A stretch of DNA of 38,591 nucleotides, from contig JACDHS010000039.1 in NCBI GenBank assembly GCA_013820875.1, forward strand, positions 1 to 38,591. The letters are read 5' to 3'. Under the pieces are notes generated by a model that saw only the letters and a list, made by a program, of their open reading frames with translations, was not told where the DNA came from and did no database searches. Shown here piece after piece: positions 12,554 to 35,956 of this stretch. The position numbers and the translations under genes were made by a program. Origin of the DNA: Verrucomicrobiota bacterium. GTDB lineage: Bacteria > Verrucomicrobiota > Verrucomicrobiia > Limisphaerales > JACDHS01. Every line of letters starts with the position of its first letter. Position 1 is the first letter of the stretch.

Positions 12554-12670
12554 ATGAGCGACATGGCGTATGAAATCTTTGAAAAACATCAGGTTTCGTT
12601 TTTCATTTTTGCCAGTCCCAAATCGGGAACCACGGCGGGTTCTCTCGGTAATTGTAACGATCCTTCATGA
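12554..12670 (+). CDS. 38-residue ORF with a sulfotransferase-like PKSGTT motif; relic or leader
   Basis: A short ORF (38 residues) with an unusually good Shine-Dalgarno sequence for this window: AAGGA five bases before ATG 12554. Its stop overlaps the start of the next gene as ATGA (12667-12670), an arrangement typical of translational coupling. The sequence VSFFIFASPKSGTT resembles the first strand and phosphosulfate-binding loop (PKSGTTW) of PAPS-dependent sulfotransferases, but the chain ends 11 residues later. Two readings are possible: the 5' remnant of a sulfotransferase gene deleted internally, or a leader ORF that drives translation of the methyltransferase. The resemblance rests on a short motif and could be chance. 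Confidence 0.4.
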   Translation: MSDMAYEIFEKHQVSFFIFASPKSGTTAGSLGNCNDPS

Positions 12671-13401
12671 CCGCGCCTGGAACTGATAGTTCAAATCTGA
12701 TGCAGACTCTGGAGCAAATGGTTGCTCTGAGAGCGCACGATGCTGAGTTCATGGCGTGGAAACTTGCCACCGAAACGACCGGCGCTTACATCAATAAGAA
12801 CATGTTCAGCGTGCGGATGTTTAGTTTCCCGACCGCCACCGCCCGGAACGATGTTGAAGGTAGGAACGCGCTGCTCGACCACGCTTTGCGAAGTGTTTCC
12901 GTTGATGGTTTATTTCTTCAATGCGGAGTCGGCCTGGGACGCAGCATCAATTTCATTTCCAGCATTGTGGCGAGGGAGCAAACGATTCATGGATTCGACT
13001 CCTTTGAAGCTTTACCCATTGAACGACCCTTTGGCCGTGGCAAACAGGAGTTCTCTCTCGGAGGAGAATTGCCGCGTGTGAACGAAAACGTGCGTCTGCA
13101 CAAAGGATGGTTCGACCAGAGTCTGCCGGAGTTTTTGAAACAGAATCCGCAGCCCATCGCGTTCCTGTTTCTTGACGCTGATGATTACAAATCCAGCCGA
13201 ACCGTTCTCAGCAGCGCCAGGGACCGGCTTGTTCCCGGGGCGGTCATTGTATTCGAGGAATACTTTAATTTTCCCGGCTGGGAACAGTTCGCCCACAAAG
13301 CTTTTCAAGAATCCATGGCCGAAACGCAGTTGCAGTATGAATACATCGGCTGTGCGCCGCGGCATTACTCAGTCGCTGTAAAACTTTTCGCCCGCACCTG
13401 A
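12667..13401 (+). CDS. TylF/MycF-like SAM-dependent methyltransferase
   Basis: A 244-residue class I methyltransferase resembling the TylF/MycF superfamily, which O-methylates sugars or related small molecules. Seen in sequence: the SAM-binding loop LQCGVGLGRSI at about 84-94 (Cys in place of the usual acidic or Glu-Phe start), the GFDSFEALP segment at 109-117 that is typical of the family, and an acidic cluster LDADDYKSSRTVL at 169-181 where relatives have the metal-binding D-x-D-x-Y/S-S-T segment. First full-size gene of the glycan cluster: its start overlaps the 38-residue ORF by 4 bp, and the following giant gene begins on the base after its stop. A sugar O-methylation role is inferred from context. 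Confidence 0.85.
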   Translation: MTAPGTDSSNLMQTLEQMVALRAHDAEFMAWKLATETTGAYINKNMFSVRMFSFPTATARNDVEGRNALLDHALRSVSVDGLFLQCGVGLGRSINFISSIVAREQTIHGFDSFEALPIERPFGRGKQEFSLGGELPRVNENVRLHKGWFDQSLPEFLKQNPQPIAFLFLDADDYKSSRTVLSSARDRLVPGAVIVFEEYFNFPGWEQFAHKAFQESMAETQLQYEYIGCAPRHYSVAVKLFART

Positions 13402-16400
13402 ATGGATTACAAAAAAGAATACGATGAATATTGGTCGCGGTCAGACCGCTGGGGCAGCCATTCCTTTGACAAACCGGACCTGCTCGCGGATGAGATCCTG
13501 AGTGTTTGCCCAGCCAGCAAAGTGTTGGATGTCGGTTTCGGCATGGGGCTGCTTGTCCGCACACTGACCCGAAAAGGGATTGATGCGCACGGCATTGACA
13601 TTGCGCAGCGACCGGTGGATGAAGCCAACAAAACTCTCCCGGGACGATTCAGCGTCGGTTCCATCCTGAACATTCCTTTTTCGGACAATACGTTTGATAC
13701 TGTGGTCAGCACTGACTGCCTGGAACACATCACCGAAGAAGACGTTCCGAAAGCGCTGGCTGAATTGTGCCGTGTGACCAAGCGTTTTGTTTACGTTCGC
13801 CTCGCCACTACTCCCGACCGGGATCGGCGCTGGCACCTGACGATTCGCGACCGGGCCTGGTGGGAGAACAGGTTTTTTGATGCCGGCCTGCGGAAGAACC
13901 CGCTTACCCAGGAAATCCTTCCATACGAAAGCCTGGAGAAAGATGAATGGCAGATCACGTTGCTGTTCGAAAAAATTCCCCCGGCAGCATTTGAGAAATT
14001 TCCTCCTGCAACACTCAAGGCAGAACGTGATTTGCACATGGATATGTTGCGCGAGACCGGGCGCCGTTCTGATGCGCATATCGTTCGCTACGCCTTAGCG
14101 CGCAATTTGCTTCCGCAGAATGGAGTGGTGGTGGATGCAGCATGCGGACTTGGCTATGGCAGCGCCCTGCTCGCCCAAAGCGATGCATCCAACCGCGTGG
14201 TTGGATTTGATTTCAGTGAGTTCGCCGTGGATTACGCAAAGGCGAATTTCAGCGTTTACACTCCGAACACGGAGTTCTACCAGGGTGATGCCTGTGATTT
14301 GAGCCGGTTTGCGGATGCTTCGGTTGACCTCGTGGTTTCATTCGAAACGGTGGAACATTTAAAGCAACCGGAAGTCTTCCTCAACGAAGTGAAACGTGTG
14401 CTCAAGCCGGGCGGACGCTTCATCGGTTCAGTGCCGGACAAGTGGGTGGATGAATCGGGCAAAGATCCTAATCCCTGGCATTTCCATGTGTTCGATTGCC
14501 GAAAATTTGTCGCGCTTTGCGAACGTTTTCTCCGAGTGGAACGCATTTACGGTCAGACCGCTGGAAGCGGCATGAAGCTCACGAATGCGCCACGCCAAAT
14601 CACTGAATTTCAACAACCGCTCCAGGGACATGAAGATACCGAATGGTGCCTGATCGTCGGAGTGGCGACAGATGATCCACTCGACTTGATCATTTTATCG
14701 CACGAGAACGAGAAAAAGAATCCGCTTTACACCAGTTGGGTAACGAAGATGAAGCGTCCGGTGAAGTGGATCACTCATTGCGGCGCCGATTGGGAACCAC
14801 CCGCCAGCACGGGAATGATTATCACGCACGATCATTACAATGAACCGTGGGTCAGTATATTGCGCAAAGCTGCGGAGAAAAATATCCCGACTCTCATTCT
14901 GGCAGACGGAATCCTTGAGTTCCGCAACACCTTTGAACATCCGGACCTGGTCCCGGGCAGTCTGTATCAGCCGGTGCTTGGGCATAAGCTGGCCTGCATC
15001 GGACGTTCGCAGGCGCGGGTTGTTGAGTCGTGGGGAAATGTTGGAATCTGCGAAGTGGTTGGCCAGCCGAGATTCGATGAAGTGCAGAGGTCGGAAGCCC
15101 GCGCACATAAAGAAGGCGAGCCGCTGCGTTTGCTGGTGATGACGGCGAAAACACCGGCATTCACTCCCGAACAACGCGAGAAAGTGTTGCGCAGTCTGGC
15201 TGATCTTAAGCAGCACCTCAGCGAGAGAATTTCCCGCGGTGAACCAATCCAGGTGCTGTGGCGATTGACGGCTGACCTGGCAGAAGAACTAAAGGTTCCG
15301 AATACACTTGGAAATCTGAACGGCGAACTGGGCAAACTTTTGCGCAACATGGATGCGGTTATCACCACGCCCTCCACTGCGATGCTGGAAGCGATGCTGC
15401 TGAAGTTGCCGACAGCCGTGCTCGATTACACAAACAGTCCGCAATTTGTTCCAGCCGCCTGGACTATTTCTGCTGCGGAACAAATGGGGACGGTGCTCGA
15501 TCAGCTTACCAATCCGCCTGAAGCCAAATTGTTGTTCCAGGAAACCGTTTTGCACGATGCCTTGGAATGTCGCACCCCGGCAACGCCGCGCCTCATCACG
15601 TTGATCGAAGAAATGATCCAGATCGGCCGCGACACGCGCGCGAAAAACGGGTCGCTGAGATTCCCCGCACGCCTGCTGAATGATGCCCAGCACGGATTCC
15701 ATTTTCCGGAAGAACAGTTCGACCTTGGAAAACTTTTTCCTGGCCATCCGAATTTCTCAGAACGAGATTCGGCTGCGTTGCAGGTGGAGGTTTCGCACCT
15801 GCGCAGAGCACTTGGAATCGATGGATCTGCTTCTCAGGCAAACTCGTCGCGAGTGCTCTTCGTTTCCACGAACGACGGAACCTTTGGCGGCAGCGAGGAA
15901 CTTTGGTCGCAAGCCGCGTTGAAGGCGCGTGCATGGGGGCGCACCGTTGGGGTGAGCGTGCGTCAATGGCTAACGGGTGAAGGAAGGCTGGACGCATTGC
16001 GTGATGCAGGATGCGATATGTTCGCCCGCCCGGTTCCGGCGACATCCGACGATTTTGCAAGAGTTCTGGATTTCAAACCGGAGCTGGTGGTGCTTTCGCA
16101 AGGATATAATCTCGAAGGCTTGGAATGGATGGAATTCATGGCGGCAAAGGGAATTCCATTTGTGAATGTCATTCAATGCGTTCATGAAACCGGCTGGCCC
16201 GCGGCGAAGGATGATTACATTTTCCGGTTGGCAGAAGGATACAAGAAATCCAGGCGCATTTGTTTCGTCTCTGAACGCAATCGTTCACTGCACGAGAAAA
16301 TGCTTGGAACAACATTCAAGGCTGCGGTGGTCGTGCGCAATCCCTACGGCGTCCCGCGAAGTCCCGAGATTCAATGGCCGGATGAAAACACGTTTCATAT

Positions 16401-17433
16401 CGGGTTGGTGGGACGGTTGGAGAGTTATCATAAGGGGCACGATCTGCTGCTGGAAGTTTTACGCCAGGAGAAATGGAACACTCGCAATGCTCACTTTCAT
16501 TTTTACGGTAGCGGTCCGCATGAAGACCTACTGCGCAGACTCATTTCCGAATGGGGAATTTCAAACTGCTCCATCGAAGGCCATGTCTCCGATATCACCA
16601 CGATCTGGCGCAAGAATCATGCCTGCATTCAGCCGTCCAGATTCGAGGGACTGCCGTTGACCATTGTTGAGGCAATGCTCTGCGGACGGATGGTTATTGC
16701 CACGGATGTTGGTGGAAATGCGGAATTCGTGGAACACGGCAAAACGGGGTTCCTTGCGGGAACCGCGAGTACGAAGGAACTGGATGAGGCACTGGAAGAG
16801 GCCTGGAGCCGCCGCCATGAATGGCGGAACCTGGGTGGTGCCGCGCGCGCGCAAGCCCTTGCACTTGTTCCCGAGGAGCCTGTCATTGATTTCCTAAATA
16901 GCTTGGAACCGCTGGTAGAGAAGTTCCCTGCCGCACGGACCACATCTTCTGTTGCGCAGCCAGGATCGTTTATGTCTGCCGCGCCTCCGTATGCAGTGCA
17001 ATTGTTCTTCCATGCTGACGGCGAGTTCAACGAACAGGAATCCATTTCGATGCCCTGCAATGAAGGCGAATGGCAGCAATTGATTTTTACTCCCTGCCAG
17101 GGGCAGTTGCGGCTTGATCCGACAGAACGCCCTGGAATCGTGGAGATCGCAGCCATCACAGTTCGTTCTGCTTGTGACGGACAGATCCTCTGGGATGCAC
17201 GGTCTGTGGACGAATGGGACGTAATAATCGTCGGAGGCGATGCCGTTTGCATCGGACATGATCGGTATTTGAAGATGTTCTGCCATGGCAATGATCCACG
17301 GTTGTTACTGCCGAAACTCAAACATTCCAAACCGGATAATTCTATGGAAGTGGTGTTGGCGATCCGCATCAGCGCTTCGCTCACTGTAAAAGAAACCTCA
17401 CCTGAAGAACTGTTGAAAGCGATGAAGTCATGA
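13402..17433 (+). CDS. Giant fusion: two methyltransferases, two GT-B-like domains and a C-terminal beta-rich domain
   Basis: A 1343-residue multidomain protein. Methyltransferase 1 covers about residues 1-195 (SAM motif VLDVGFGMG at 41-49, acidic motif HGIDIA at 63-68). Methyltransferase 2 covers about 205-420 (VVDAACGLGYGS at 243-254; VLKPGGRFIGSVP at 333-345). Residues about 425-745 look like a degenerate GT-B or glycerophosphotransferase-like region (ITTPSTAMLEAMLLKLPTAV at 654-673). Residues about 815-1175 form a GT4-type glycosyltransferase (GLVGRLESYHKGHDLL; E-x7-E with Glu1082 and Glu1090; donor-side TDVGGNAEFVEHGKTGFLAG). Residues about 1197-1330 are a beta-rich domain shared with the next protein. 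No membrane segment is seen, so it is probably a cytoplasmic assembly enzyme that extends and methylates a glycan. Its stop overlaps the next start (ATGA). Confidence 0.9.
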   Translation: MDYKKEYDEYWSRSDRWGSHSFDKPDLLADEILSVCPASKVLDVGFGMGLLVRTLTRKGIDAHGIDIAQRPVDEANKTLPGRFSVGSILNIPFSDNTFDTVVSTDCLEHITEEDVPKALAELCRVTKRFVYVRLATTPDRDRRWHLTIRDRAWWENRFFDAGLRKNPLTQEILPYESLEKDEWQITLLFEKIPPAAFEKFPPATLKAERDLHMDMLRETGRRSDAHIVRYALARNLLPQNGVVVDAACGLGYGSALLAQSDASNRVVGFDFSEFAVDYAKANFSVYTPNTEFYQGDACDLSRFADASVDLVVSFETVEHLKQPEVFLNEVKRVLKPGGRFIGSVPDKWVDESGKDPNPWHFHVFDCRKFVALCERFLRVERIYGQTAGSGMKLTNAPRQITEFQQPLQGHEDTEWCLIVGVATDDPLDLIILSHENEKKNPLYTSWVTKMKRPVKWITHCGADWEPPASTGMIITHDHYNEPWVSILRKAAEKNIPTLILADGILEFRNTFEHPDLVPGSLYQPVLGHKLACIGRSQARVVESWGNVGICEVVGQPRFDEVQRSEARAHKEGEPLRLLVMTAKTPAFTPEQREKVLRSLADLKQHLSERISRGEPIQVLWRLTADLAEELKVPNTLGNLNGELGKLLRNMDAVITTPSTAMLEAMLLKLPTAVLDYTNSPQFVPAAWTISAAEQMGTVLDQLTNPPEAKLLFQETVLHDALECRTPATPRLITLIEEMIQIGRDTRAKNGSLRFPARLLNDAQHGFHFPEEQFDLGKLFPGHPNFSERDSAALQVEVSHLRRALGIDGSASQANSSRVLFVSTNDGTFGGSEELWSQAALKARAWGRTVGVSVRQWLTGEGRLDALRDAGCDMFARPVPATSDDFARVLDFKPELVVLSQGYNLEGLEWMEFMAAKGIPFVNVIQCVHETGWPAAKDDYIFRLAEGYKKSRRICFVSERNRSLHEKMLGTTFKAAVVVRNPYGVPRSPEIQWPDENTFHIGLVGRLESYHKGHDLLLEVLRQEKWNTRNAHFHFYGSGPHEDLLRRLISEWGISNCSIEGHVSDITTIWRKNHACIQPSRFEGLPLTIVEAMLCGRMVIATDVGGNAEFVEHGKTGFLAGTASTKELDEALEEAWSRRHEWRNLGGAARAQALALVPEEPVIDFLNSLEPLVEKFPAARTTSSVAQPGSFMSAAPPYAVQLFFHADGEFNEQESISMPCNEGEWQQLIFTPCQGQLRLDPTERPGIVEIAAITVRSACDGQILWDARSVDEWDVIIVGGDAVCIGHDRYLKMFCHGNDPRLLLPKLKHSKPDNSMEVVLAIRISASLTVKETSPEELLKAMKS

Positions 17434-19121
17434 GCAGCGCAAGGAACAAGATTTTGTTCATCTCCCATGACGCTTCGCGCACCGGTGCGCCGATGGCGTT
17501 GCTGAATCTCATTAAATGGATTCGAGCGAATTCAGATTTAAATTTTCGAATTATCCTGCGCGCGGGAGGCGCTTTGGAATCCGAATTCCGGGCGTTGGGT
17601 GAAACACATATCCTGAATGATGCCTGTGGCAATCCGGCGTTTGTCCGGGATGTTTCGCTCATTTTTTCCAACACCTGCACCAACGGCGAATTCATAGAAA
17701 CTCTGCCTTACGGAACCATTCCCATCATCACTCACGTGCATGAAATGCAGGCGGTGATTGAATCCTATGGACCTGCAAATCTCCGACGAGTCCAAAAGCA
17801 GACCGCCCATTTCATCGCGTGCTCCAAAGCCGTCCAGTCGGGTCTAATCAAGTTGGGCGTTTCTCAAGACAAGATCAGCACGATCCACTCAAGCATTCCG
17901 ACTGTCGAAGTTGTAGCCAAAGCAGCAGAGAAAAGCCGCGAACAGCTTCAGGTATGGCATCAATGGGAGAAATACCAGGAAATCGTCGTTGGTTGCGGGG
18001 TCGCGGAATGGCGTAAAGGGGCGGATTTGTTCGTGCAGATTGCTCATGCCGTAAGGCGAAAACTCGGAGGCAAAAAAAACATCCTGTTTTTATGGATCGG
18101 CATTCTTCCTCCGGATGAACGGGGCACGTTGCTGGCGAACGATGTTCACCAACTCGACCTTGAAGACATGGTACACTTTTTGGGTGAGCAGACCAATCCG
18201 TATCCCTACTTGAGCGCGGCTGACCTGTTTTGTCTCTCATCACGTGAAGATCCCTTCCCTTTGGTGATGTTGGAAGCAGCGGCGCTCGGCAAACCAATCG
18301 TTTGTTTCCAGCATGCCGGCGGTGGTGAAGAATTTTGCAATCGAGGCGGCGGTGTTGCTGTTCCGTTCCTCGATATCAATGCGATGGCAGACGCCATTCT
18401 CCGCCTGCTCGAAAAAAACGAGATTCGCAAAGATCTCGGCGCTGCCGCGGCAAAGTTGGTGGCAACAAACTTCGATTTTTTGGTGACAGCCCCGAAGTTC
18501 CTGTGCGAAATCGAGAAGCAAGCGAGCAAAGCCTCAAGTCCGGATATTGGTTACGCGCAGGTATATTTTCCTTCGGCCGACGGTTATTCAGAGTCCAATT
18601 CCAGAAGTTTTCGAGTGCCTCCAGGCCGTTGGATCCGCCTGCAGGTTGACCTGCCTCAGGAGGTCATCGGCAGGGCGGAACCGATTTTTCTGGATCCTAT
18701 CGCCCAGCCAGGCTTGATCGGAGTGACTGGGATCACCTTCAAGTCGAAGGCTGGCAAAATCCTTTGGCGTTGCAAATCCGAAGAACCGGGCTATGTCCAA
18801 ATTCCAACCGGCGTGAGCATTCCTTGCTCGCGTGTTTTTAAATTTGTCTGCTTTGATGCGGAAGCACGCCTTGCTATTACCATTCCTCCACACTGTAGAA
18901 CTGAGAATTTTCTAACGATCGAATGGTGGCAGCACGTCAGCATAGAGGCAGAGGAACTCGCGCTCGCCTGCCGTGATTTGCGGGATTCTCTCGTCTCTGT
19001 ACAAGCTCCCGTTAATCCGAATGCAGAAGCGTCCCCGGAATTGGAAGATTACAGCGCTTCGGGGGAACCCGTAAAAAATTCAAAAACCTTGCGCTTTATC
19101 GAAAAATTACTGAAAACCTGA
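17430..19121 (+). CDS. GT4 glycosyltransferase with C-terminal beta-rich domain
   Basis: A 563-residue retaining GT4-like glycosyltransferase. N-terminal GT-B half: ISHDASRTGAPMALLNLIKW (residues 11-30), the usual glycine/alanine-rich acceptor-side loop. C-terminal half: VVGCGVAEWRKGADLF (186-201), then SREDPFPLVMLEAAALGKPI (271-290), in which Asp274 and Glu282 take the place of the E-x7-E pair, followed by an HAGGGEEF donor-side loop. Residues about 374-510 repeat the beta-rich domain found at the end of the preceding 1343-residue protein. A charged tail follows. Start chosen at the ATG overlapping the upstream stop by 4 bp. The next gene begins 8 bp after its stop. Probably adds a sugar to the same glycan. 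Confidence 0.92.
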   Translation: MSSARNKILFISHDASRTGAPMALLNLIKWIRANSDLNFRIILRAGGALESEFRALGETHILNDACGNPAFVRDVSLIFSNTCTNGEFIETLPYGTIPIITHVHEMQAVIESYGPANLRRVQKQTAHFIACSKAVQSGLIKLGVSQDKISTIHSSIPTVEVVAKAAEKSREQLQVWHQWEKYQEIVVGCGVAEWRKGADLFVQIAHAVRRKLGGKKNILFLWIGILPPDERGTLLANDVHQLDLEDMVHFLGEQTNPYPYLSAADLFCLSSREDPFPLVMLEAAALGKPIVCFQHAGGGEEFCNRGGGVAVPFLDINAMADAILRLLEKNEIRKDLGAAAAKLVATNFDFLVTAPKFLCEIEKQASKASSPDIGYAQVYFPSADGYSESNSRSFRVPPGRWIRLQVDLPQEVIGRAEPIFLDPIAQPGLIGVTGITFKSKAGKILWRCKSEEPGYVQIPTGVSIPCSRVFKFVCFDAEARLAITIPPHCRTENFLTIEWWQHVSIEAEELALACRDLRDSLVSVQAPVNPNAEASPELEDYSASGEPVKNSKTLRFIEKLLKT

Positions 19122-19129
19122 CCCGCTTA

Positions 19130-20347
19130 ATGCACGTCTTTACCAGCATCACAGCCAATTATCTCCCGAAAGCACGTGTTCTCGCGCATTCGCTGAAGAA
19201 GTTTCATCCTGAAGCGAAGTTTCACCTGGTGCTTTCGGATGAAGTTCCCGCGACGCTCAAACAGGAACCAGCGCCTTTCGATTCGATCATCACAATCAAC
19301 GAGTTGCCGATTCGCGATCGCGAAGCATGGATTTTCAAGCACACGCTGGTGGAACTTTGCACTGCTGTGAAGGGATTCGCGTTCCAGGAGATTGTCAAAC
19401 GTCATAAGGCTGCGAAAGTATTCTATTTCGACCCAGACATGGTGATCATGTCGCGATTGGATCATCTGCTCGAAAAACTGGATCAGTCCAGCGTCTTGCT
19501 GACACCACATCAAACGCAACCTGAAACCAACTTGGAAGCCATTGTGGATAACGAAATCTGCAGTCTGAAGCATGGCGTTTACAACCTTGGGTTTCTTGCG
19601 ATTCGCACTTCTCCGGAAGGTCTGCGTTTCATTAACTGGTGGGCTGATCGCCTTGCTGAATTTTGTTACGACGACATTCCAGGCGGTATTTTCACAGACC
19701 AGCGTTGGGTGGATCTCGCGCCCGGGTTTTTCGAAGACATCGGCATTGTCCGTCACCCTGGTTGCAATGTGGCGACCTGGAACCTGACGCATCGCACGGC
19801 AACCGGCTCGCTGAAAGAAGGGATCAAAATGAATGGCATCCCTCTTATTTTCTATCACTTCTCGGGATTCGATAGCGGCGCCCAGGAAGCGATGTTGAAG
19901 AAGTACGGCAGCAGCAGCCCGGTTCTTTTTGAACTGCGCGACTGGTATATCGCCGAGTGCGAGAAATTTGGACAAACAGATCAAGGGAAGATTCCCTGCG
20001 CCTACAACCTCTTCGACAATAAAGTTCCGATCGCAAAGCATCATCGCGTGCTCTATCGTAAACGAAAGGATTTACAAAACGCCTTCAAGAATCCATTTGC
20101 CACAGCCGAGAAGAATAGCTCCTATTACAACTGGTATGTTGCCAATGTGGAAAATGGATCCGGGACTGATTCTGAGGAACACAATTTGATGAATCTGCAA
20201 CAGCAGGTCAAAGATCTCCGCCAGGAATTGTCATTGATCAGAAAAAACTGGCTGCGATGGCGCATCAGCCGAACCTACTCAAAACTGGTGAAACATTTTC
20301 GTAAACAGCCAGGCACTGCTGCACCAGTCACAAATGAAGGCCGATAG
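19130..20347 (+). CDS. GT-A fold glycosyltransferase with C-terminal coiled coil
   Basis: A 405-residue GT-A fold nucleotide-sugar glycosyltransferase resembling GT8/GT32-like proteins. The metal- and nucleotide-binding DxD equivalent is YFDPDMVIM with Asp101 and Asp103. GVYNLGFLAIR (149-159) and FTDQRWVDLAP (188-198) are conserved catalytic-side segments of this group. The N-terminal MHVFTSITANYLPKARVLAHSL is the usual first strand and helix. Residues about 350-400 form a short coiled coil followed by a basic tail that could contact membrane or partners. No signal peptide. It overlaps the next gene by 14 bp, a strong sign of co-translation. Donor and acceptor sugars cannot be read from the sequence. 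Confidence 0.9.
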   Translation: MHVFTSITANYLPKARVLAHSLKKFHPEAKFHLVLSDEVPATLKQEPAPFDSIITINELPIRDREAWIFKHTLVELCTAVKGFAFQEIVKRHKAAKVFYFDPDMVIMSRLDHLLEKLDQSSVLLTPHQTQPETNLEAIVDNEICSLKHGVYNLGFLAIRTSPEGLRFINWWADRLAEFCYDDIPGGIFTDQRWVDLAPGFFEDIGIVRHPGCNVATWNLTHRTATGSLKEGIKMNGIPLIFYHFSGFDSGAQEAMLKKYGSSSPVLFELRDWYIAECEKFGQTDQGKIPCAYNLFDNKVPIAKHHRVLYRKRKDLQNAFKNPFATAEKNSSYYNWYVANVENGSGTDSEEHNLMNLQQQVKDLRQELSLIRKNWLRWRISRTYSKLVKHFRKQPGTAAPVTNEGR

Positions 20348-22511
20348 ACAAAGTGATTTTTCCACTGCCCGGTTCGTCGTCTGTGTTCCGGTGGAACAGG
20401 GAGCCGAGCCTTCCGTTGAGATAACGATTTCAAGCGTTGTCGCGCACACTGCGGGCAACGCTCAGATTCTTATTTTTTCCAATGCTCACGGCAGTTTCGA
20501 CGCGTTCACTGCTGGGCAGCGAAACGTTCGCGTCGTGCGGACCAACGCTACTCCGACATTACGAGAAATCGTTGAGAACCTTCCTGCTGAGTTTTCCGGA
20601 TTTGACCTCCTTGTTGTCAGGCCTGGAACAGATGTTCCCATCAGTTGGGATGCTCGTCTGAAATGGACCGCCTATAGCGATCAACGGATCGCCACAGCTT
20701 CCCCAGTTTGCAACGAGGTGCCGCTTTTTTCCATTCTGCGCGACCGCTTGCAGGAATCGCCGGACCTGGAAACGCTGAACCGGATTGCTTACTGGAAAGG
20801 AAGAAAACTTACTTACGAACTGCCATTCTTTTTACCAGCTTGTGTTTACATAAAAAGGGAGGCGTTGCACCAGCTTTGTTCGGGCGAAGGCAACTCTGTG
20901 CTGGATTCTGCCTGGCAAACTTCGCACGCCCTCAATTCGCACGGTTTTCTCAATGTCATCTGCGATCATGTCGTGATTCGTGCCACGGAAAATGATCCAT
21001 CAATGCTAAATCTCACGAGCACAGACGCCGTGGAAGTCGCGCATCTTTTGAGGCACCATCCCTTTGGGGAAATCAGGGAGGCTGCAGACGAAAAACTGAA
21101 AAGAAAAACGCCGCTCAAAGCGATCCCGGGGCTCACTGATGGCACGGTGCAATTGCATTTGATGCATGGCTGGGGCGGAGGTTTGGAACAGTGGGTTCGA
21201 AGCTACTGCAAGGCAGATACGACTCGCACCAACTTGATTTTGAAGCCGGTGGGGAATTGGGGATCCTTCGGAGAGGCGTTATTCCTCTATGAAAACATCG
21301 ATGCGAAAGAGCCAATTGCACGATGGGATTTTACCCGGCCCATCCGCGGTACGGCCATTACTCATTTCGAATACAAACACGCTCTCGCGGAAATCCTTCG
21401 CAAGTATGGGGTTGATTACATTCTTGTTTCATCGCTGATCGGACATTCCCTGGATGCTTTGAAGACAGATGTGGACACCGCGCTGGTCTGTCACGATTAC
21501 CATCCGTTCTGCCCAGCCATCACCATTCATTTCAATGAGGTTTGCACGAGTTGCGATTGCAGCCGTCTGACGCAATGTTTTCAGCAGAATGAGATGAATC
21601 GGTTCTTTAAGAATCTCTCCGCAACCGAGTGGATTCCCCTGAGGCAACGATTCACGGAAGTGGTGACGGAACGTTCCATCCAAGTCATTACGCCGACAGA
21701 TTCGGTTCGTGAACATTTGGTCCAATTGGAGCCCGCCTTGCAGAATGCGCCTTTTGCAACCATTGCGCACGGCATGGATTGTCGCTCCCTCATCAAGCGG
21801 CAGAACAGGTCTAAACCCGGGGAAAGACTGCGCGTGGTGATTCTTGGCAGTCTGGCTTTGCAGAAAGGTTATAATCTATTCAAAGCCACGTATCGCGAAC
21901 TCTTACCCTACGCGGACATTTTCCTCCTCGGTTGTGGAGATGAAGGCATGGAGTTTCAGGGTGAAGGAATCTGTGTCATCCGCAGTTACAAGCCCGAGGA
22001 ACTTCCGCACCTCCTGGAAAAAATTTCACCCGATTGCGGACTTCTTCTCTCCATTTGGCCGGAAACGTTTAGCTACACACTTTCCGAACTGATGCAGTTC
22101 GGAATTCCTCCCGTTGCCACTAATCTGGGTGCGTTCAGGAACAGGGTGCAAAACGGGATAAACGGCCTTTTATTTGAACCGACCCCCGCCTGTCTCCTCC
22201 AGATTATCCAATCAGTTCACGCGGACCGAAAGACCCTGGAGGTAATCGAAGCTGAGTTGCTGCAAATGAAACATCGGAGTCTCGCCGAAATGGTGGAGGA
22301 CTACCACGTTCGCCTGCCGGAAAAGCGCTTTTCTCCAGTCCGATATTCAAATGGTGACAACGTTTACGACTTCGCCTCAACGACAAAGAAATCGTTGCGC
22401 CGGGATCTTAAAAAATACATGCGTCAACAGGTCAAGACACCAACGCTCCTGGCGATGAAGCGTCGGATCGTGCGCTGGCTGAAAATTTCCAGGACAATCC
22501 CTTCGCGCTGA
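20334..22511 (+). CDS. Bifunctional glycosyltransferase: degenerate GT-A plus GT4 domain with Cys cluster
   Basis: A 725-residue fusion. Residues about 12-230 resemble a GT2-type GT-A domain (VCVPVEQGAEPSVEITISSV) but show no clean DxD; VVRPGTDVP at 94-102 is in the expected place. Residues about 270-650 are a GT-B/GT4 domain: acceptor-side HGWGGGLEQWV, VVILGSLALQKGYNLF (501-516), E-x7-E with Glu577 and Glu585 in WPETFSYTLSELMQFGIP, then NLGAFRNRVQNGINGLLF. Between the two GT-B halves is a cysteine-rich insert (Cys386, 393, 404, 407, 409, 415, starting CHDYHPFCP) that could bind a metal or be structural; related GT4 enzymes carry a similar HDY...CP element. A basic C-terminus ends the cluster. 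The GT-A half may be inactive. Confidence 0.88.
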   Translation: MKADRQSDFSTARFVVCVPVEQGAEPSVEITISSVVAHTAGNAQILIFSNAHGSFDAFTAGQRNVRVVRTNATPTLREIVENLPAEFSGFDLLVVRPGTDVPISWDARLKWTAYSDQRIATASPVCNEVPLFSILRDRLQESPDLETLNRIAYWKGRKLTYELPFFLPACVYIKREALHQLCSGEGNSVLDSAWQTSHALNSHGFLNVICDHVVIRATENDPSMLNLTSTDAVEVAHLLRHHPFGEIREAADEKLKRKTPLKAIPGLTDGTVQLHLMHGWGGGLEQWVRSYCKADTTRTNLILKPVGNWGSFGEALFLYENIDAKEPIARWDFTRPIRGTAITHFEYKHALAEILRKYGVDYILVSSLIGHSLDALKTDVDTALVCHDYHPFCPAITIHFNEVCTSCDCSRLTQCFQQNEMNRFFKNLSATEWIPLRQRFTEVVTERSIQVITPTDSVREHLVQLEPALQNAPFATIAHGMDCRSLIKRQNRSKPGERLRVVILGSLALQKGYNLFKATYRELLPYADIFLLGCGDEGMEFQGEGICVIRSYKPEELPHLLEKISPDCGLLLSIWPETFSYTLSELMQFGIPPVATNLGAFRNRVQNGINGLLFEPTPACLLQIIQSVHADRKTLEVIEAELLQMKHRSLAEMVEDYHVRLPEKRFSPVRYSNGDNVYDFASTTKKSLRRDLKKYMRQQVKTPTLLAMKRRIVRWLKISRTIPSR

Positions 22512-29207: not shown

Positions 29208-29576
29208 TCACAACTCAGATGGCGAAGAACCAACGGCAATTATACTGCAGAGTTGAACGCTTTTGAGTCCGAGTTCCTTCGCCTTATCGAGCACTTCTTG
29301 CGATACCGTGCCCGGATTCAGCCAGAGTTCATCGCAACCGCAGGCCGCGATGTCGGGCAGGATCTGCAGCAATCGTTCGGGACCGACGTAAACGCTCACC
29401 AGGGCAGGCTTCTCCGGTAGGTCGCGAACGTTTTTGTAACAGGGCAACTGTTCTACTTCCGTTTGCGCCGGGTGAACCGGGAAAACTTTGTAGCCGGCGC
29501 GTTGAAATGCGCGCACGGCTTTGTTGCCATATTTCGATCGGTCATTGGATGCGCCGATTACTGCGACAGATTTCAT
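29208..29576 (-). CDS. CoA-binding domain protein (YccU-like)
   Basis: A 122-residue Rossmann-fold protein of the CoA_binding_2/YccU group. The N-terminus SVAVIGASNDRSKYGNKAVR is the dinucleotide- or CoA-binding glycine loop, and VFPVHP and LWLNPGTVS are the conserved strand ends of the family. The biochemical role of these stand-alone domains is not established; they resemble the CoA-binding part of succinyl-CoA synthetase alpha. The start overlaps the cusA stop by 4 bp, so it is translated from the metal-efflux transcript, an unexplained association. No clear terminator follows it. Confidence 0.9.
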   Translation of the reverse strand: MKSVAVIGASNDRSKYGNKAVRAFQRAGYKVFPVHPAQTEVEQLPCYKNVRDLPEKPALVSVYVGPERLLQILPDIAACGCDELWLNPGTVSQEVLDKAKELGLKSVQLCSIIAVGSSPSEL

Positions 29577-32500
29577 TTCTTCACAGTCCGCTTCAACTCA
29601 CGTTCGCGCAACCAGGCGAAGATGACAGGAGTCACAATCAAAATGTGAACCAGGCTGCTCAGCATTCCTCCAATCACCGGTGCGGCAATCGGTTTCACCA
29701 CTTCGGCGCCGACCCGCGTGCTGATCATGATGGGAAGTAAACTCATGATGGTGGTGGCAACCGTCATGACTTTCGGACGCAACCGCAACCGGGCACCATC
29801 TTTGATCGCTTGAATCATATCATCGCGGTTGAAAGCATCCCCGCGTTCGGCCTTCTTGTTGGCCAGCATCTCCTCAAGATAAACAACCATGACAATGCCG
29901 GTTTGAATGGCTGTTCCGAACAGTGCGATGTAACCGACCCAAACTGCGACGCTGAAATTGTAGCCCAGCATATATTGCAACAACACCCCGCCAGTCAGTG
30001 CGAAAGGAACTGCGAGAATGACATGGGCCGCTTCGCTGAAGGATTTGTAAATGATGAAGAGCAGCAGAAAAATGATCAGCAAGACCGCCGGCACAATAAT
30101 CATCAACGTCCGTTGGGCATGCAGTTGATTCTCATATTCCCCACTCCACTCCATCGTCATACCGGGTGGCAGTTTGATTTCGCGACCGACCGTTTCTTTC
30201 ATCTCTTTGACAAAACTGCCGAGATCCCGGTCGATGACGTTCGCCTGCACAAAGACGCGGAGACGCCCATTCTCGCTGGCGATCTCGCTCGGACCGATTA
30301 CCCGCTTCATCTTCGCCAGTTGTCCGAGCGGGATGTGTTTGCCGGAAGGGGTGGCAACCAGGATTGAGCCAAGGTCTTCGATGTCGTCGCGCTCGTTCTT
30401 CTGCAAACGCACCTGGATCGGGAATCGTTGCCGCCCTTCGATCGTAGTGGTGACATTCTTTCCACCGATGCCGGTTTCGACAGCGGTCAACACATCTTCC
30501 ACGCGCAATCCATAGCGTGCTATCGCCACCCGATCGACTTCGAATTCGAGATACGGCTTTCCTTGCACTCGTGACGCCGCGATGCCCGTCGCGCCGTTAA
30601 CCTTCTGCACGATGCGCTCCACTTCGAACGCCTTCTGTTGTAATGCTTCGAGGTTGTCGCCGAGGATTTTGATTCCGACCTGCGCTCGAATGCCGGTGCT
30701 GAGCATCAGGAGACGATTTTCAATCGGTTGCAAAAATCCGGGAACATAACCGGGCACTTGCGTCAGCTTCTCGGTGAGTTCCGCCACCAGCATGTCTTTG
30801 GTCATGCCGGGCCGCCATACGGGATTGCGGATCGTTCGCGGAATCTTAATAAAGCCCAGAAAATTGTAATTTGTTTGGATATATTCCGGCTTCAGCATGA
30901 TCGTTGTCTCGATCATTTCCACTGGGGCAGGATCGGTTGCCGTTTCCGCGCGTCCGAGTTTTCCGCCGACCGATTCCACTTCGGGCAATTGTTTCATCAC
31001 CCGGTCCTGCCAGGCCATGATGCGTTTCACTTCGGTCAATGAAGTGCTCGGCAACAAGACCGGCATGAAGAGAAGACTCCCTTCATTGAGAGTCGGCATG
31101 AACTCGCTTCCCATGCCGTGTGAGATTTTCGCCAATCTATTCCATTCCCGCTTTTCGAACTCCTGCACAACCGGTCGCGGCAAACCGAAAGCAAGTACCA
31201 GGGAGAAAACCAACAGCAACACCGCTGCACCCAGAACTATCTTGCGATGCCCGAGCGCCCAGTCGAGGACCGGATCGTAGATGCGCAACAACCGTTTCAT
31301 CACCTGGTTTGAATCCTCGGAATGGAATGGCCCACGCACCAGGAACGTGCAAAGCACCGGCACCATGGTAACGGCCAGTAACGTTGCGCCGATCATCGCG
31401 AAGGTCTTTGTAAACGCCAGAGGATGAAACAGTTTCCCTTCCGGACCCGAGAGTGCAAAGACTGGAACAAACGCCAGGATGATGATCGCCATTGCAAAGA
31501 AGATCGGTCGTCCCACTTGCTTGGCGGCATCTGACGTGATCTGCCAGGTTTCCGCTTTCGACAGGCGCCCTCCTTTCTTTTCCTCGGCACGTTCACAATG
31601 TCGAATGACATTCTCGGTCATGACAATGGCCGCATCCACGAGAACACCGATGGCAATCGCAATGCCGGAAAGGGACATGATGTTCGACGTGACACCAAAC
31701 TGCCGCATGAGAATGAAAGAGATGAGAATCGAAACCGGCAGTGGAATGGTGACGATCAGGATACTGCGGAAGTGCCACAGAAAAATAATGTGCGCCAAAG
31801 TGACTAGAAGGATTTCCTCAGTGAGGGCATGCTTGAGAGTGGCGATGGTGCTCTCGATCAATTCACTGCGATCATAAAATGACTTGATGGAAACGCCGTC
31901 CGGAAGACTCGGCGTAATCTGCGCGATTTTTTCTTTCACTCGCGCAATCACGTCACGGGCGTTTTCGCCGGTCCGCATCACTACGATACCGCCGACCACT
32001 TCGTTGCCATCAACATCCAGTGAACCACGCCGGAAATCGCCGCCGATCTGCACATGGGCCACGTGTTTCAGGTAGATCGGAGTTCCATCCACTTCCTTGA
32101 GAACGATGTTTTCGAGATCTTCAATTTTCTGGACCAACCCAAGGCCGCGCACCACGAACTCCATGCCGTTTTCTTCGACGACTTTCCCCCCGACATTGAG
32201 GTTGCTCGCGTTCACCGCTTCCATGACTTCCTGGAGGGAGACACCTGCGGAACGCATTTTTGTGGAGGAAACCTCCACCTGGTATTGGCGCACGAAACCG
32301 CCAATGCTGCCGACTTCCGCAACCCCTTGCACGGCATTGAGCTGATACCGAACAAACCAATCCTGAACCGCCCGAAGTTCGCCTAGATCATAGCCGCCGT
32401 TCGGTGCTTTGGCGGGATCCACGTCCAGATAATATTGATAAACCCAGCCGAGACCTGTTGCGTCCGGACCGAGTTTTGGAACAACGCCCACAGGCAGAAC

Positions 32501-32857
32501 ATCACCGAGATAATTCAGTCGTTCGAGAATTCGAGTGCGTGCGAAATAATTATCCACGTCCTCTTCGAAGATGATGGTCAGCATGGAGAAGCCGAACATC
32601 GAAGCGGCGCGCACTTCTTTCACCCCGGCCAATCCCTGCAGGTTTACAGAGAGCGGATAAGTAATTTGATCTTCCACCTCCTGCGGACTGCGTCCCGCCC
32701 AGTCGGCGAAAACGATCACCTGGTTTTCGCTCAAGTCTGGAATCGCATCAACCGGTGTCTTGTAAAGCGAATGAACTCCCCACGCGATAATGAAGAACAC
32801 CCCGCAAATGACGAGAAAGCGATTGCGCAACGACCATTCAATCAGGCGATTGATCAC
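29573..32857 (-). CDS. cusA: CusA-type Cu(I)/Ag(I) RND efflux pump
   Basis: A 1094-residue inner-membrane pump of the heavy-metal efflux RND family. The GTG at 32857 overlaps the upstream stop as GTGA and starts with the conserved VINRLIEWSLRN; an ATG 21 bp upstream is less likely. About 12 membrane helices and two large periplasmic loops are visible. Proton-relay acids Asp408 and Glu415 lie in VLVDAAIVMTENV. The three methionines that bind copper in E. coli CusA appear conserved: Met598 (LLFMP), Met648 (PVEMIETT) and Met718 (LLMLSTG). GRAETATDPAPVEM is the usual CusA signature. This supports Cu(I)/Ag(I) rather than Zn/Co specificity. Works with the CusB and TolC-type proteins upstream. Confidence 0.96.
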   Translation of the reverse strand: MINRLIEWSLRNRFLVICGVFFIIAWGVHSLYKTPVDAIPDLSENQVIVFADWAGRSPQEVEDQITYPLSVNLQGLAGVKEVRAASMFGFSMLTIIFEEDVDNYFARTRILERLNYLGDVLPVGVVPKLGPDATGLGWVYQYYLDVDPAKAPNGGYDLGELRAVQDWFVRYQLNAVQGVAEVGSIGGFVRQYQVEVSSTKMRSAGVSLQEVMEAVNASNLNVGGKVVEENGMEFVVRGLGLVQKIEDLENIVLKEVDGTPIYLKHVAHVQIGGDFRRGSLDVDGNEVVGGIVVMRTGENARDVIARVKEKIAQITPSLPDGVSIKSFYDRSELIESTIATLKHALTEEILLVTLAHIIFLWHFRSILIVTIPLPVSILISFILMRQFGVTSNIMSLSGIAIAIGVLVDAAIVMTENVIRHCERAEEKKGGRLSKAETWQITSDAAKQVGRPIFFAMAIIILAFVPVFALSGPEGKLFHPLAFTKTFAMIGATLLAVTMVPVLCTFLVRGPFHSEDSNQVMKRLLRIYDPVLDWALGHRKIVLGAAVLLLVFSLVLAFGLPRPVVQEFEKREWNRLAKISHGMGSEFMPTLNEGSLLFMPVLLPSTSLTEVKRIMAWQDRVMKQLPEVESVGGKLGRAETATDPAPVEMIETTIMLKPEYIQTNYNFLGFIKIPRTIRNPVWRPGMTKDMLVAELTEKLTQVPGYVPGFLQPIENRLLMLSTGIRAQVGIKILGDNLEALQQKAFEVERIVQKVNGATGIAASRVQGKPYLEFEVDRVAIARYGLRVEDVLTAVETGIGGKNVTTTIEGRQRFPIQVRLQKNERDDIEDLGSILVATPSGKHIPLGQLAKMKRVIGPSEIASENGRLRVFVQANVIDRDLGSFVKEMKETVGREIKLPPGMTMEWSGEYENQLHAQRTLMIIVPAVLLIIFLLLFIIYKSFSEAAHVILAVPFALTGGVLLQYMLGYNFSVAVWVGYIALFGTAIQTGIVMVVYLEEMLANKKAERGDAFNRDDMIQAIKDGARLRLRPKVMTVATTIMSLLPIMISTRVGAEVVKPIAAPVIGGMLSSLVHILIVTPVIFAWLRERELKRTVKK

Positions 32858-34620
32858 GGCTTGACCTCCGTTCCGCATTCAAGCATGTCAGCGCCGAAAT
32901 AAGGGTTCCGCAATGGTGCCTGGAGCTGGATCCAGAAACCATTTTTCGGCGCGCCGGGAACGGCCTGGTTCACCATTGGACAACGATAAATCTTTACGGC
33001 TTCGAAAGTATCATCCTCGTTGCGTAGATGTTTTGCGAACTCCGCAAGAGCCATGCTAAAGGGATGAAACGCTTTGCGCGCTTCAGGTAAATCTTTCGTT
33101 GCGGTCAAACGCCCGCTGATCGCAATCGGCTCAACCAGCGGTTGCCACGATTTCAACTCCAGAAAAGCATTTGTATAACTTGCGACCACCGGAGAAAGCT
33201 TTGGCGCCTCCGCATTGAACGATTTCAAGTCATCCGCCGCCAGGGCTTCACCAATACGATTTGCAACATCGAGCAATGCTTCCGACGCCTGCTGTTGTCC
33301 CTCGTTCAGTTTCTCCAGATCTGAAAGTTCCCTGGCGGCCAGCTCCACATGGCCGTGTTGTTCGCCGGGAGCTTCCGAGCTCTGGTTGAGTTGCGCCTGC
33401 GCATCGATCAACGTGTTGCCATAGGTCACCACGGACTCCCCTTCGCTGACCCCTTCAATCACTTCCCACGCATCAGTGCCGCGCAAGCCGAGTTTCACCC
33501 TGCGCTGTTGGTAGCCCCCTTCACCCACGTCCACATAGACCAACGGTTCGCCTCCCGGATTCAGAACGGCAGTCCGCGGAATGGTCAACCGTTCTCCCAT
33601 ATCCACCTGGATAATACCTTCGGCATACAAACGATGCAGCAATAGCCGACGCTTCTTCCCGTCCTCTTCCACCAAAGGATTGTCCAGTTCCACACGAACC
33701 TTCGCGGAGCGGGTCAAATCCTTCACGTTCGGATCAATAAACGCGATTTCGCCTTCGAAGATTTTAGTGGGAACTGCTGGTGTTGTGACCTTCACTTTTT
33801 GTCCGGGTTTGATCCAGGAAAAATCCTGTTCGTAGGCATCGAACTGAAACCACATCGTGGAGAAGTCAGCGATTTCGAAGAGTGGATCGCCTTCCTTTAC
33901 ATATTGTCCTTCGTAAACAAAGCGGTCCACCACGGTGCCAGACATCGGTGCGAAAATCTGCGAACGCGCAATACTGTTGGTTGATTCGCCCAGCTTTTGA
34001 ATCTGCTGCTGGGTCAAGCCGAGTCGTTCCAAACGTTGCGCGGCGGCCTGGAGCAGGCGTTTGTATTCGGCCTGGATTTGCGGGTTTGCGTTCGTCGGCT
34101 GACGCTGCGCCAAAACCAGGTACTCGCGTTCGGCACTTAGCAGGTTCGGGCTGTAAAACGAGGCAAGCGGTTCGCCTTGCGTGACTTCGGCCCCGGTGTA
34201 GTTCACGAACAACTCTTCAATGCGTCCATCAATGTAGGCCGAGAGAATGCGATGTTTGCTATCGTCGTCGTCGATCGTGCCGGCAACCCGAATAGCGCGT
34301 TGCAAAGCGCCTTTGCGAACCGGGGCAGTTTGGACGTTCACCACTTGAATGGTGCTCGGGCTCAGCGTGACCAGATCTTCGGCCAGTTCACTTTGACCTT
34401 CAAAAATCGGCGACAGAGCCATTCCGCAAATGGTGCATTTGCTGCCCGGCTTGTCAGACTTCACCTGCGGATGCATGGAACATTGGTAGAACCGAATTTT
34501 CCGTTCACCGCTCGCCTGGGTGGAGCCGTGGTCATGCCCGGCATGTCGTGCCGCGTACCAACCGGCTGCGCCAGCGATAATCGCCACGATTAAAACTAAG
34601 AATAAGATTTTAGGTTTCAT
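32854..34620 (-). CDS. cusB: CusB-type periplasmic adaptor with extra metal-binding domains
   Basis: A 588-residue membrane-fusion protein linking CusA to the outer-membrane channel. N-terminal membrane anchor at about 4-22. Next is a heavy-metal-binding domain (Cys47, Met49, His50, then Cys62, Cys65 and Met67 in KCTICGMALSP). The HlyD-type core includes a barrel-sandwich lipoyl segment, an alpha-helical hairpin (about 160-215) and beta-barrel/membrane-proximal domains to about 400. Residues about 450-588 are a DUF3347-like C-terminal domain with FHPFS, a CPM motif and NPYFGADMLECG, probable extra copper ligands. Lies 20 bp downstream of the TolC-type gene and overlaps cusA. Both terminal metal domains suggest a built-in chaperone function. 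Confidence 0.94.
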   Translation of the reverse strand: MKPKILFLVLIVAIIAGAAGWYAARHAGHDHGSTQASGERKIRFYQCSMHPQVKSDKPGSKCTICGMALSPIFEGQSELAEDLVTLSPSTIQVVNVQTAPVRKGALQRAIRVAGTIDDDDSKHRILSAYIDGRIEELFVNYTGAEVTQGEPLASFYSPNLLSAEREYLVLAQRQPTNANPQIQAEYKRLLQAAAQRLERLGLTQQQIQKLGESTNSIARSQIFAPMSGTVVDRFVYEGQYVKEGDPLFEIADFSTMWFQFDAYEQDFSWIKPGQKVKVTTPAVPTKIFEGEIAFIDPNVKDLTRSAKVRVELDNPLVEEDGKKRRLLLHRLYAEGIIQVDMGERLTIPRTAVLNPGGEPLVYVDVGEGGYQQRRVKLGLRGTDAWEVIEGVSEGESVVTYGNTLIDAQAQLNQSSEAPGEQHGHVELAARELSDLEKLNEGQQQASEALLDVANRIGEALAADDLKSFNAEAPKLSPVVASYTNAFLELKSWQPLVEPIAISGRLTATKDLPEARKAFHPFSMALAEFAKHLRNEDDTFEAVKIYRCPMVNQAVPGAPKNGFWIQLQAPLRNPYFGADMLECGTEVKP

Positions 34621-34640
34621 TTGGTATCAAAAGTTCGGGT

Positions 34641-35942
34641 TTAAGGTTCTACAGAAAGTTTTCCGGCAATCATCTCCAACGCTTCGAGATCACCCAGGCC
34701 ACAGCAGAGAACCAGTTCGGAAAGCATCTGGTACTGATCAGAAACAGCGCGGGCATACATCAATTGCGCATCGAACAACATGCGACGGGCTTCCAGCACA
34801 TCGTTGATTGAGCCGACGTTCGATTCCCACGCAGCCTGGGCGCTTTCCATCGCCGTTTCCGTGCGCGGAATGATTTCGTCGCGATACACCAGGGCCTCGT
34901 GTCGCGCGGCATCGATCCGGATAACGAGATGATGAATGTCGTTTCGCACTTCCAATTCGTAATCTGTTGCATCCAGTTCTCCCGCCTGTTGACGCGCCTT
35001 CTCCCGGTTGAAATCCGCGTCGTATTTCTTGCGATTGCCCCATGGAAAATTGAAAGCCACGAACGCCATGCCTTCGCGAAATTCACCAGAACCGGTATAA
35101 TTCCGCGCTTCCACACCAACGGTGAAATCGGGATAACGTTGCCGCCGCGTTTGTTCGGCCTGAGCCTCGGCGAGTTCCACTTCACGACGCATTTTTTTCA
35201 AGACCGGCTCCGACCTGAGCGCGATATCCACGAGTTCTTCGCTATAAAAAATGGCAGGGCCGACCTCCGGCAGGGCGAGCGCCGGGCTGTACGATTGTAA
35301 AGGGCGACCGATTAATCGGTCTAGCTGGGCGTATGCATTCGTAATCAGCACGCTCTCTGTCCTGAGCGCTTGCACCCGTTTGGCGCGCTCATTTTGCAGA
35401 CGTAAAACTTCAAACTGCATGGCAGTGCGCGCTTCGTAGCGTTGTTCGGCCACGCTTAAAAGTGTTTCGAGAGAGGCAATGTCCTGGCCGGCAATTTCCA
35501 CTGTTCGTTCTGCCAGCGCAGCTTGAAACGCCGCAATTGCAAGTTCCTTGCGGACAAGTTGGAACTTCAAATCGGCATTCGCCTGTTCGATTACTGTTTC
35601 GGTTTCGGCCACGCGCCGTGCTGCTTCCGGTTTGCCGAAGAGCGGCAGCTTTTGTTCAACGCCATAAACAAGGTCGCCATCTTCCCGGCGCATTGCCTTT
35701 TCTGCCGCCATCCTACCGACACGCACCATGGGATCTTCCCAGGTGCGCACGCTCATTTCATTTTCACGCGCCGCTTCGACCAGTTTCTCCGTCGCCCGCA
35801 ATGCGGGATTATTCGTCTGCGCTTCATCAGCCAGTTGGTTGATAAGCGCGGGTGTTATGACGATTGAATCGGTGTTTTGGGCGGCAAGCTGCGCCACGCC
35901 AACAGCCGCTACGGCAATAGTTATCAGGTAAATTCTTTTCAT
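34641..35942 (-). CDS. TolC-family outer-membrane efflux channel (CusC-like)
   Basis: A 433-residue outer-membrane factor. ATG 35942 is chosen because GGAG lies 5 bases upstream and it begins a signal peptide (MKRIYLITIAVAAVGVAQLAAQ); there is no lipobox Cys, unlike E. coli CusC. Two repeated OEP-type regions form the long helical barrel; VELAEAQAEQTRRQRYPDFT is a typical helix-to-strand segment. VLEARRMLFDAQLMYARA is the second-repeat equivalent. Its place between the small metal proteins and cusB fits the exit duct of the tripartite Cu/Ag pump. A hairpin sits just upstream of its ribosome binding site. Confidence 0.93.
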   Translation of the reverse strand: MKRIYLITIAVAAVGVAQLAAQNTDSIVITPALINQLADEAQTNNPALRATEKLVEAARENEMSVRTWEDPMVRVGRMAAEKAMRREDGDLVYGVEQKLPLFGKPEAARRVAETETVIEQANADLKFQLVRKELAIAAFQAALAERTVEIAGQDIASLETLLSVAEQRYEARTAMQFEVLRLQNERAKRVQALRTESVLITNAYAQLDRLIGRPLQSYSPALALPEVGPAIFYSEELVDIALRSEPVLKKMRREVELAEAQAEQTRRQRYPDFTVGVEARNYTGSGEFREGMAFVAFNFPWGNRKKYDADFNREKARQQAGELDATDYELEVRNDIHHLVIRIDAARHEALVYRDEIIPRTETAMESAQAAWESNVGSINDVLEARRMLFDAQLMYARAVSDQYQMLSELVLCCGLGDLEALEMIAGKLSVEP

Positions 35943-35956
35943 GTTCTCCAATTGGG

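Follow-up and report, generated by a model that had tools for sequence, protein, structure and literature searches.

A single-chain protein with two methyltransferases and two glycosyltransferases, probably fused from an ABC-transporter-type polysaccharide operon, in a Verrucomicrobiota genome

What would a bacterium make with one protein that carries two methyltransferases and two glycosyltransferases (GTs), and from which genes could such a protein be built? The question is raised by an open reading frame (ORF) on contig JACDHS010000039.1 of a Verrucomicrobiota bacterium (assembly GCA_013820875.1), the whole 38,591 nucleotides of which we call the window; according to the ORF list of the window, the frame runs uninterrupted for 1343 codons (13402-17433, + strand). 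An earlier annotation made from the letters alone (the sequence-only reading) had proposed a single 1343-residue chain with two methyltransferases and two glycosyltransferase-like domains, and this stands: the frame is open, Pfam detects domains in it, and a structural model gives its middle region (MID) a GT-B fold. We consider it quite probable that this multimodular enzyme works in the assembly of a methylated surface polysaccharide and arose by fusion of genes that are consecutive elsewhere in Wzm/Wzt operons.

Modules and conservation of the fusion

Methyltransferase and GT4 domains were called by Pfam curated cut-offs plus an intact motif. We found two stretches that match Methyltransf_11/25 above the cut-off (141.6 bits compared to 21.2), about 35-147 (MT1) and 243-341 (MT2), both assigned to the class I S-adenosylmethionine (SAM) methyltransferases. 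Motif I is VLDVGFGMG at 41-49 in MT1, which also has a conserved HLTIRDRAWWE, and VVDAACGLGYGS at 243-254 in MT2, where a conserved ERDLHMDMLRE lies just before the motif. Hence, the two SAM-binding motifs are where the sequence-only reading had placed them, and both are intact and kept in relatives. No kinase family was found beside the methyltransferases in Pfam and NCBIfam scans, and residues 1-1180 are all assigned to methyltransferase and GT domains.

The second glycosyltransferase, GT4a, matches Glycos_transf_1/Glyco_trans_1_4 above the cut-off (Pfam match at 994-1152) and has the pair E1082-x7-E1090 of a retaining-type GT4, so the full GT4 domain and both glutamates expected of it are present. 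The C-terminal domain (CT) is beta-rich, as had been anticipated, in a model of low confidence (predicted local distance difference test, pLDDT, 68.5), and a comparison with solved folds yielded nothing below E 0.01. The CT of the fusion shares 28-30% identity with the C-terminal end of the product of the next gene, gt563, and its motif LRLDP...PG also occurs in GT2, WbsX and sulfotransferase proteins.

A homologue survey, which had been suggested as a check, shows that MT1-MT2-MID is a single-frame chain in three other genomes, with 56-58% identity: 947 residues in G133 (56% over residues 1-802), 1330 residues in G953 (57%) and 1227 residues in G954 (58%). None of the four chains has lost either SAM motif, and by alignment the N-terminus of the window protein lines up with the start region of the three relatives; its ATG directly abuts the stop of the upstream gene mt244 (junction TGA-ATG). 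MT1 is 60-68% identical to its counterparts in the three other fusions, with motif I kept, and MT2 is 59-64% identical in these fusions and 37-53% identical in further multidomain proteins. Since one frame encodes MT1-MT2-MID in three other genomes at this identity, this part cannot be the product of a frameshift or of chance fusion. For the rest of the protein such an origin is unlikely, because GC at third codon positions (GC3) is even; both GC and GC3 are uniform over the whole gene, with all domains alike. These surveys sampled 1,968 genome slots, with overlap from one search to another, and whatever is called absent here is absent from that sample; a scan of genome contigs with the full-length protein, for which the query held too few exact peptide patterns, returned no relative.

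In G953 and G954, MT1-MT2-MID runs on directly into a counterpart of GT4b, the N-terminal glycosyltransferase domain of gt563, and not into GT4a. GT4b is 52% identical to the C-terminal GT4 of these two fusions (832-1191 at L127 and 926-1286 at L128), and a maximum-likelihood tree places all three in one clade (99/98), with GT4a in a different clade, as sister to the GT4 gene that directly follows MID in a gammaproteobacterial locus, L076 (95/98). Because the fused GT4 of the relatives groups with gt563 and not with GT4a, we read the window layout as MT1-MT2-MID plus GT4a-CT / GT4b-CT; GT4a-CT would either have been inserted between MID and GT4b in the window genome or have been lost from the relatives.

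Related methyltransferases also occur in other multidomain proteins. At L134:314-4105 (G885), a 1263-residue fusion consists of a sulfotransferase, a Methyltransf_24 domain and two methyltransferase domains related to MT1 and MT2; Methyltransf_24, the domain type of mt244, is thus fused to an MT1/MT2-like pair in this genome. At L014:8279-16917 (G049), an 887-residue protein pairs a degenerate MT1-like part with an MT2-like domain, next to a C-terminal half of no identified type, and it adjoins a 2068-residue HAD/GT4/GT2/TPR protein.

Gene order of the unfused counterparts

In other genomes, relatives of the modules are separate adjacent genes in the same order (gene lists of these loci are from simple ORF picking rather than from a gene caller). 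In the gammaproteobacterial metagenome-assembled genome (MAG) at L076, one strand carries Wzm (ABC2_membrane), Wzt with a C-terminal domain, a sulfotransferase, a methyltransferase, MID, GT4, GT4 and GT2-GT2, and the second GT4 is 35% identical to gt563 over the full length. A relative of the same class (G384, L085) has Wzt, an MT1-like methyltransferase, MID and GT4a in order. A Pirellulales MAG (L028) has a Wzm-like gene, Wzt with a C-terminal domain, a methyltransferase gene (35% identity to MT2) and then MID; its Wzm-like protein (288 residues, no Pfam match) is 44% identical to an Oscillatoria protein, and the latter shares 49% identity with the L076 Wzm. Stand-alone GT4a relatives lie near Wzt in two order-level relatives (L137 and L139). 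Gene order strongly links the modules to ABC-exported polysaccharides. Hence, the protein looks to be part of an ABC-transporter-type operon for a methylated surface polysaccharide that has been fused into one chain, and it shows how the genes of such an operon can merge into a single multidomain enzyme while other phyla still display the unfused order.

Several observations weigh against this reading. Genes for Wzm/Wzt, a polymerase, a ligase or sugar-nucleotide synthesis are all missing among the scanned window genes; the two Wzt_C transporters of the window genome are on other contigs (C70 and C122), without MID; and the MID-GT4a joint is found in the window genome only. Moreover, MID of the Pirellulaceae sits with DUF1559 pilin-like, GT8 and GT2 genes, usually without a related methyltransferase, so a methylated glycan cannot be deduced from MID alone.

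MID as a GT-B family

The sequence-only reading had described the middle region as degenerate GT-B-like and ending at residue 745, and had called for a structure prediction; the prediction corrects both points. An AlphaFold2 model made with 39 homologues (pLDDT 89.4, predicted template modelling score 0.84) resembles uridine diphosphate N-acetylglucosamine (UDP-GlcNAc) 2-epimerases and TagF/TarL polymerases over nearly the whole domain, with Z of 18-19 over 275-302 residues and a root-mean-square deviation of about 3.6-4.8 for the best structure matches (Foldseek/VIA). Hence, MID is predicted to be a complete GT-B domain, from 425 to about 770. In the alignment of the 39 homologues, from which all conservation counts for MID are taken, D502, G503, E506, G534, G554, P556, R557, W620, R621, S658, T659, E663, P680 and Q713 are invariant (39/39). 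The model ends MID with a 15-residue helix at 790-804 and no long coiled coil, and many stand-alone homologues have longer C-terminal coiled-coil-like tails of variable length.

No Pfam family scores above its cut-off in residues 425-805. DUF6716 (PF20471), a putative glycosyltransferase, is just below its cut-off of 27 bits, with 24.4 bits for the window MID; of two relatives, L127 has 26.9 bits and L128 narrowly passes with 28.3, and weak matches are present in the C-terminal half of 30/39 homologues, so a distant tie is likely. DUF6716 and the UDP-GlcNAc 2-epimerase/TagF group have the GT-B fold in common with MID, but only part of the DUF6716 profile is matched by the window MID, which is perhaps a distant branch of DUF6716. 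A literature search found no paper that mentions DUF6716, and a sequence search of the PDB returned nothing for MID and just weak coiled-coil matches, from the tails, for the MID profile.

Enzymes of similar fold were considered, and sequence features speak against them. Non-hydrolysing UDP-GlcNAc 2-epimerases have a conserved catalytic histidine, and TagF/TarL-type transferases of cytidine diphosphate (CDP)-polyol phosphate have two (H444 and H548 in TagF). MID does not look like such an epimerase, with 12.8 bits for Epimerase_2 compared to 30.6 and 0 invariant histidines in the 39 homologues, nor a TagF/TarL-type transferase, since no histidine column is kept in more than 30/39 homologues and the fold alone is alike. 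The retaining beta-transferases of 3-deoxy-D-manno-oct-2-ulosonic acid (Kdo) of families GT99, GT107 and GT140 are marked, in the C-terminal half, by a QXXXD nucleophile motif and a (K/R)XHP motif for cytidine monophosphate (CMP) (PMC12887879). We found QXXXD in 14/39 homologues at the best column and [KR]XHP in 4/39, which speaks against MID being a member of these three families; no Kdo transferase structure is among the 50 listed fold matches of MID, which does not count as evidence against. Capsule_synth (the KpsC/KpsS family) was likewise rejected, with a best member match of E 0.007, and it was not found in the window genome and is rare in the class. Because neither the catalytic-histidine columns of the epimerase/TagF group nor the Kdo-transferase motifs are conserved, we conclude that MID is a separate, uncharacterised GT-B family.

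Counting named loci, we found 56 with this family, spread over at least five phyla, mostly in Pirellulaceae and also in Verrucomicrobiota, Ignavibacteriae, Oscillatoria, an omnitrophote, an acidobacterium and a gammaproteobacterium; the window genome itself has a further, stand-alone MID paralogue of 406 residues. As a family signature we propose DG[IV][LI]E[WFY]R / TAxxPxF / WR[LVI] / PSTxx[LIV]E. MID is thus a conserved GT-B family awaiting a donor assignment, a concrete and testable target, and knowing its donor would help assign functions in planctomycete and verrucomicrobial surface-glycan clusters, whose glycan chemistry is poorly known.

Three kinds of MID locus stand out. L033:8837-13200 and about 30 more Pirellulaceae loci (L032-L078) have the cluster GT4 - DUF1559 pilin-like - MID - GT8 - GT2, in most of them with the pilin-like gene immediately before MID; this is possibly a pilin glycosylation cassette. 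In the cyanobacterium Oscillatoria sp. CS-180 (L026:5324-14252), a Wzm-like gene, Wzt, a polysaccharide pyruvyl transferase, MID, kdsD, kdsB, kdsA and kdsC are clustered, which suggests Kdo in an exported polysaccharide. At L013:15587-18897, L015, L044, L079 and L086 (Verrucomicrobiota, Ignavibacteriae and Omnitrophota), a 70-78% identical SDR epimerase precedes a stand-alone MID, often with a KdsD-like SIS-CBS gene as well, and the three genes may form a conserved sugar-synthesis trio.

Possible function and the surrounding cassette

For an enzyme of a methylated surface polysaccharide, we propose that MID and GT4a would extend a lipid-linked chain in the cytoplasm by successive sugars, with GT4a presumably using a nucleoside diphosphate sugar with retention, and that GT4b, from the next and translationally coupled gene, would add a further sugar within the same complex. 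MT1 and MT2 would O-methylate the sugar or sugars from the fused transferases, most simply at two positions on one residue or on two neighbouring residues, and CT probably holds the enzyme or the glycan. Methylation might end the chain, which we rate as the lesser prospect; otherwise it would merely decorate it. For all modules, substrates and reaction order are what we infer, unlike the domains, the fold of MID, the conservation of MT1-MT2-MID, the gene order and the linkage to GT4b in relatives.

Single-chain extend-and-cap enzymes are already known, and the window protein is alike in plan; what is new is this mix of modules and the presence of MID, its most informative part. WsaE, of the S-layer glycan of Geobacillus stearothermophilus, has a methyltransferase and two rhamnosyltransferases in one chain and methylates the terminal sugar (PMC2943079). 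By domain plan, the window protein is similar, with an N-terminal methyltransferase region and two GT domains in one chain, and the WsaE cluster is of the ABC-transporter type; in contrast, WsaE has one methyltransferase rather than two, its GT modules are rhamnosyltransferases, and Wzm/Wzt are adjacent to it. ORF6 of Klebsiella pneumoniae O7 and WbbB (serotype O12) join modules for polymerisation and for termination in one chain (PMC11231755). These have an extended coiled-coil ruler, which the window protein lacks, and we found in it neither the methyltransferase-kinase and GT2 modules of O7 ORF6 nor the GT99 Kdo transferase of WbbB. In Escherichia coli O9a, WbdD is a methyltransferase in a multidomain glycan assembly protein (PMC3482155); it lacks a polymerising GT domain but includes a kinase and a coiled coil, whereas the window protein has two GT domains and neither a kinase nor a long coiled coil. 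The earlier proposal of an extend-and-cap enzyme by analogy with WbdD therefore survives as a link to methylated glycan assembly, since relatives of the modules stand in the same order beside Wzm/Wzt; the kinase of WbdD and a long coiled-coil ruler are absent from the window protein. A literature search found no paper that joins two methyltransferase domains, a glycosyltransferase and O-antigen.

The neighbourhood of the relatives is a setting in which methyl caps end chains, so a strict extend-and-cap enzyme is a credible alternative, although we think it somewhat improbable: GT4a and GT4b would act as polymerases, and MT1/MT2, perhaps after MID has added a sugar, would methylate the non-reducing end as the stop for growth and the signal for export by Wzt. 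Relatives of the methyltransferases, MID, GT4a and GT4b follow, in the same order, a Wzt with a C-terminal carbohydrate-binding domain, Wzt_C transporters are present in the window genome, and WsaE is a precedent with one methyltransferase and two GTs (PMC2943079). An extended coiled coil marks chain terminators (PMC11231755), as the tails of stand-alone MID proteins might; however, the model of the window MID shows this tail shrunk to its short helix, the protein has no kinase and the window no transporter, and a simple methyl cap would take one methyltransferase, where two are conserved here. More tentatively, and with rather low confidence, MID may be the founding type of an unclassified GT-B family that acts at or near the chain end in ABC-transporter glycan pathways of Planctomycetota, Verrucomicrobiota, Cyanobacteria, Ignavibacteriae and Proteobacteria, and the window protein a compact form in which tandem methyltransferases finish the sugar added by MID.

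It is unlikely that MID transfers Kdo or a related ulosonic acid from its CMP form, adding a terminal Kdo-like residue that would then possibly be methylated. The Oscillatoria MID, after Wzt and directly before kdsD-kdsB-kdsA-kdsC, speaks for it, as do KdsD-like SIS-CBS genes near MID in the window genome (L013) and at L030, L044, L051, L061 and L036, and the invariant DG, WR and ST may be at positions comparable to CMP-sugar GT-B motifs; yet the QXXXD and [KR]XHP motifs are poorly kept, at most MID loci no kds genes lie nearby, and the nearest listed folds are UDP-GlcNAc 2-epimerase and TagF/TarL. Less likely still, the cassette glycosylates a protein of pilin or S-layer type rather than an O-polysaccharide. 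The DUF1559 pilin-like gene adjoins MID in most Pirellulaceae loci and genes for TPR and FG-GAP proteins lie upstream in the window, but no pilin-like or S-layer-type gene adjoins the window fusion, and the same-order relatives at L076, L085 and L028 are beside Wzm/Wzt, though Wzm/Wzt serve S-layer glycans too.

The fusion belongs to a tight run of five genes, which together carry three methyltransferase domains; GT domains occur in four of these genes, and gaps are at most 8 bases within 13402-22511 (Table 1). In the 725-residue product of gt725, the N-terminal ~480 residues have no Pfam match.

Table 1. Modules of the fusion protein and genes of the surrounding cassette.
Feature	Position	Strand	Basis and remarks
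mt244, stand-alone TylF/Methyltransf_24 methyltransferase	12667..13401	+	Pfam; third methyltransferase of the operon
MT1, residues 1-205	13402..14016	+	Pfam/NCBIfam; class I SAM methyltransferase
MT2, residues 206-424	14017..14673	+	Pfam; class I SAM methyltransferase
MID, residues 425-805	14674..15816	+	AlphaFold2, Foldseek, 39-homologue alignment; predicted GT-B fold
GT4a, residues 806-1180	15817..16941	+	Pfam, motif positions, tree
CT, residues 1186-1343 (including stop)	16957..17433	+	Beta-rich accessory domain
gt563, GT4b and CT-like domain	17430..19121	+	Start overlaps the stop of the fusion (ATGA)
gt405, GT8-like glycosyltransferase	19130..20347	+	Sub-threshold Pfam match
gt725, C-terminal GT4	20334..22511	+	Last cassette gene; 14-base overlap with gt405

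Elsewhere in the window, Pfam identifies a TPR protein and an FG-GAP protein upstream, and the minus strand at 29573-35951 carries an RND-type efflux set (AcrB family, HlyD-type adaptor with a heavy-metal-binding domain, and outer-membrane factor).

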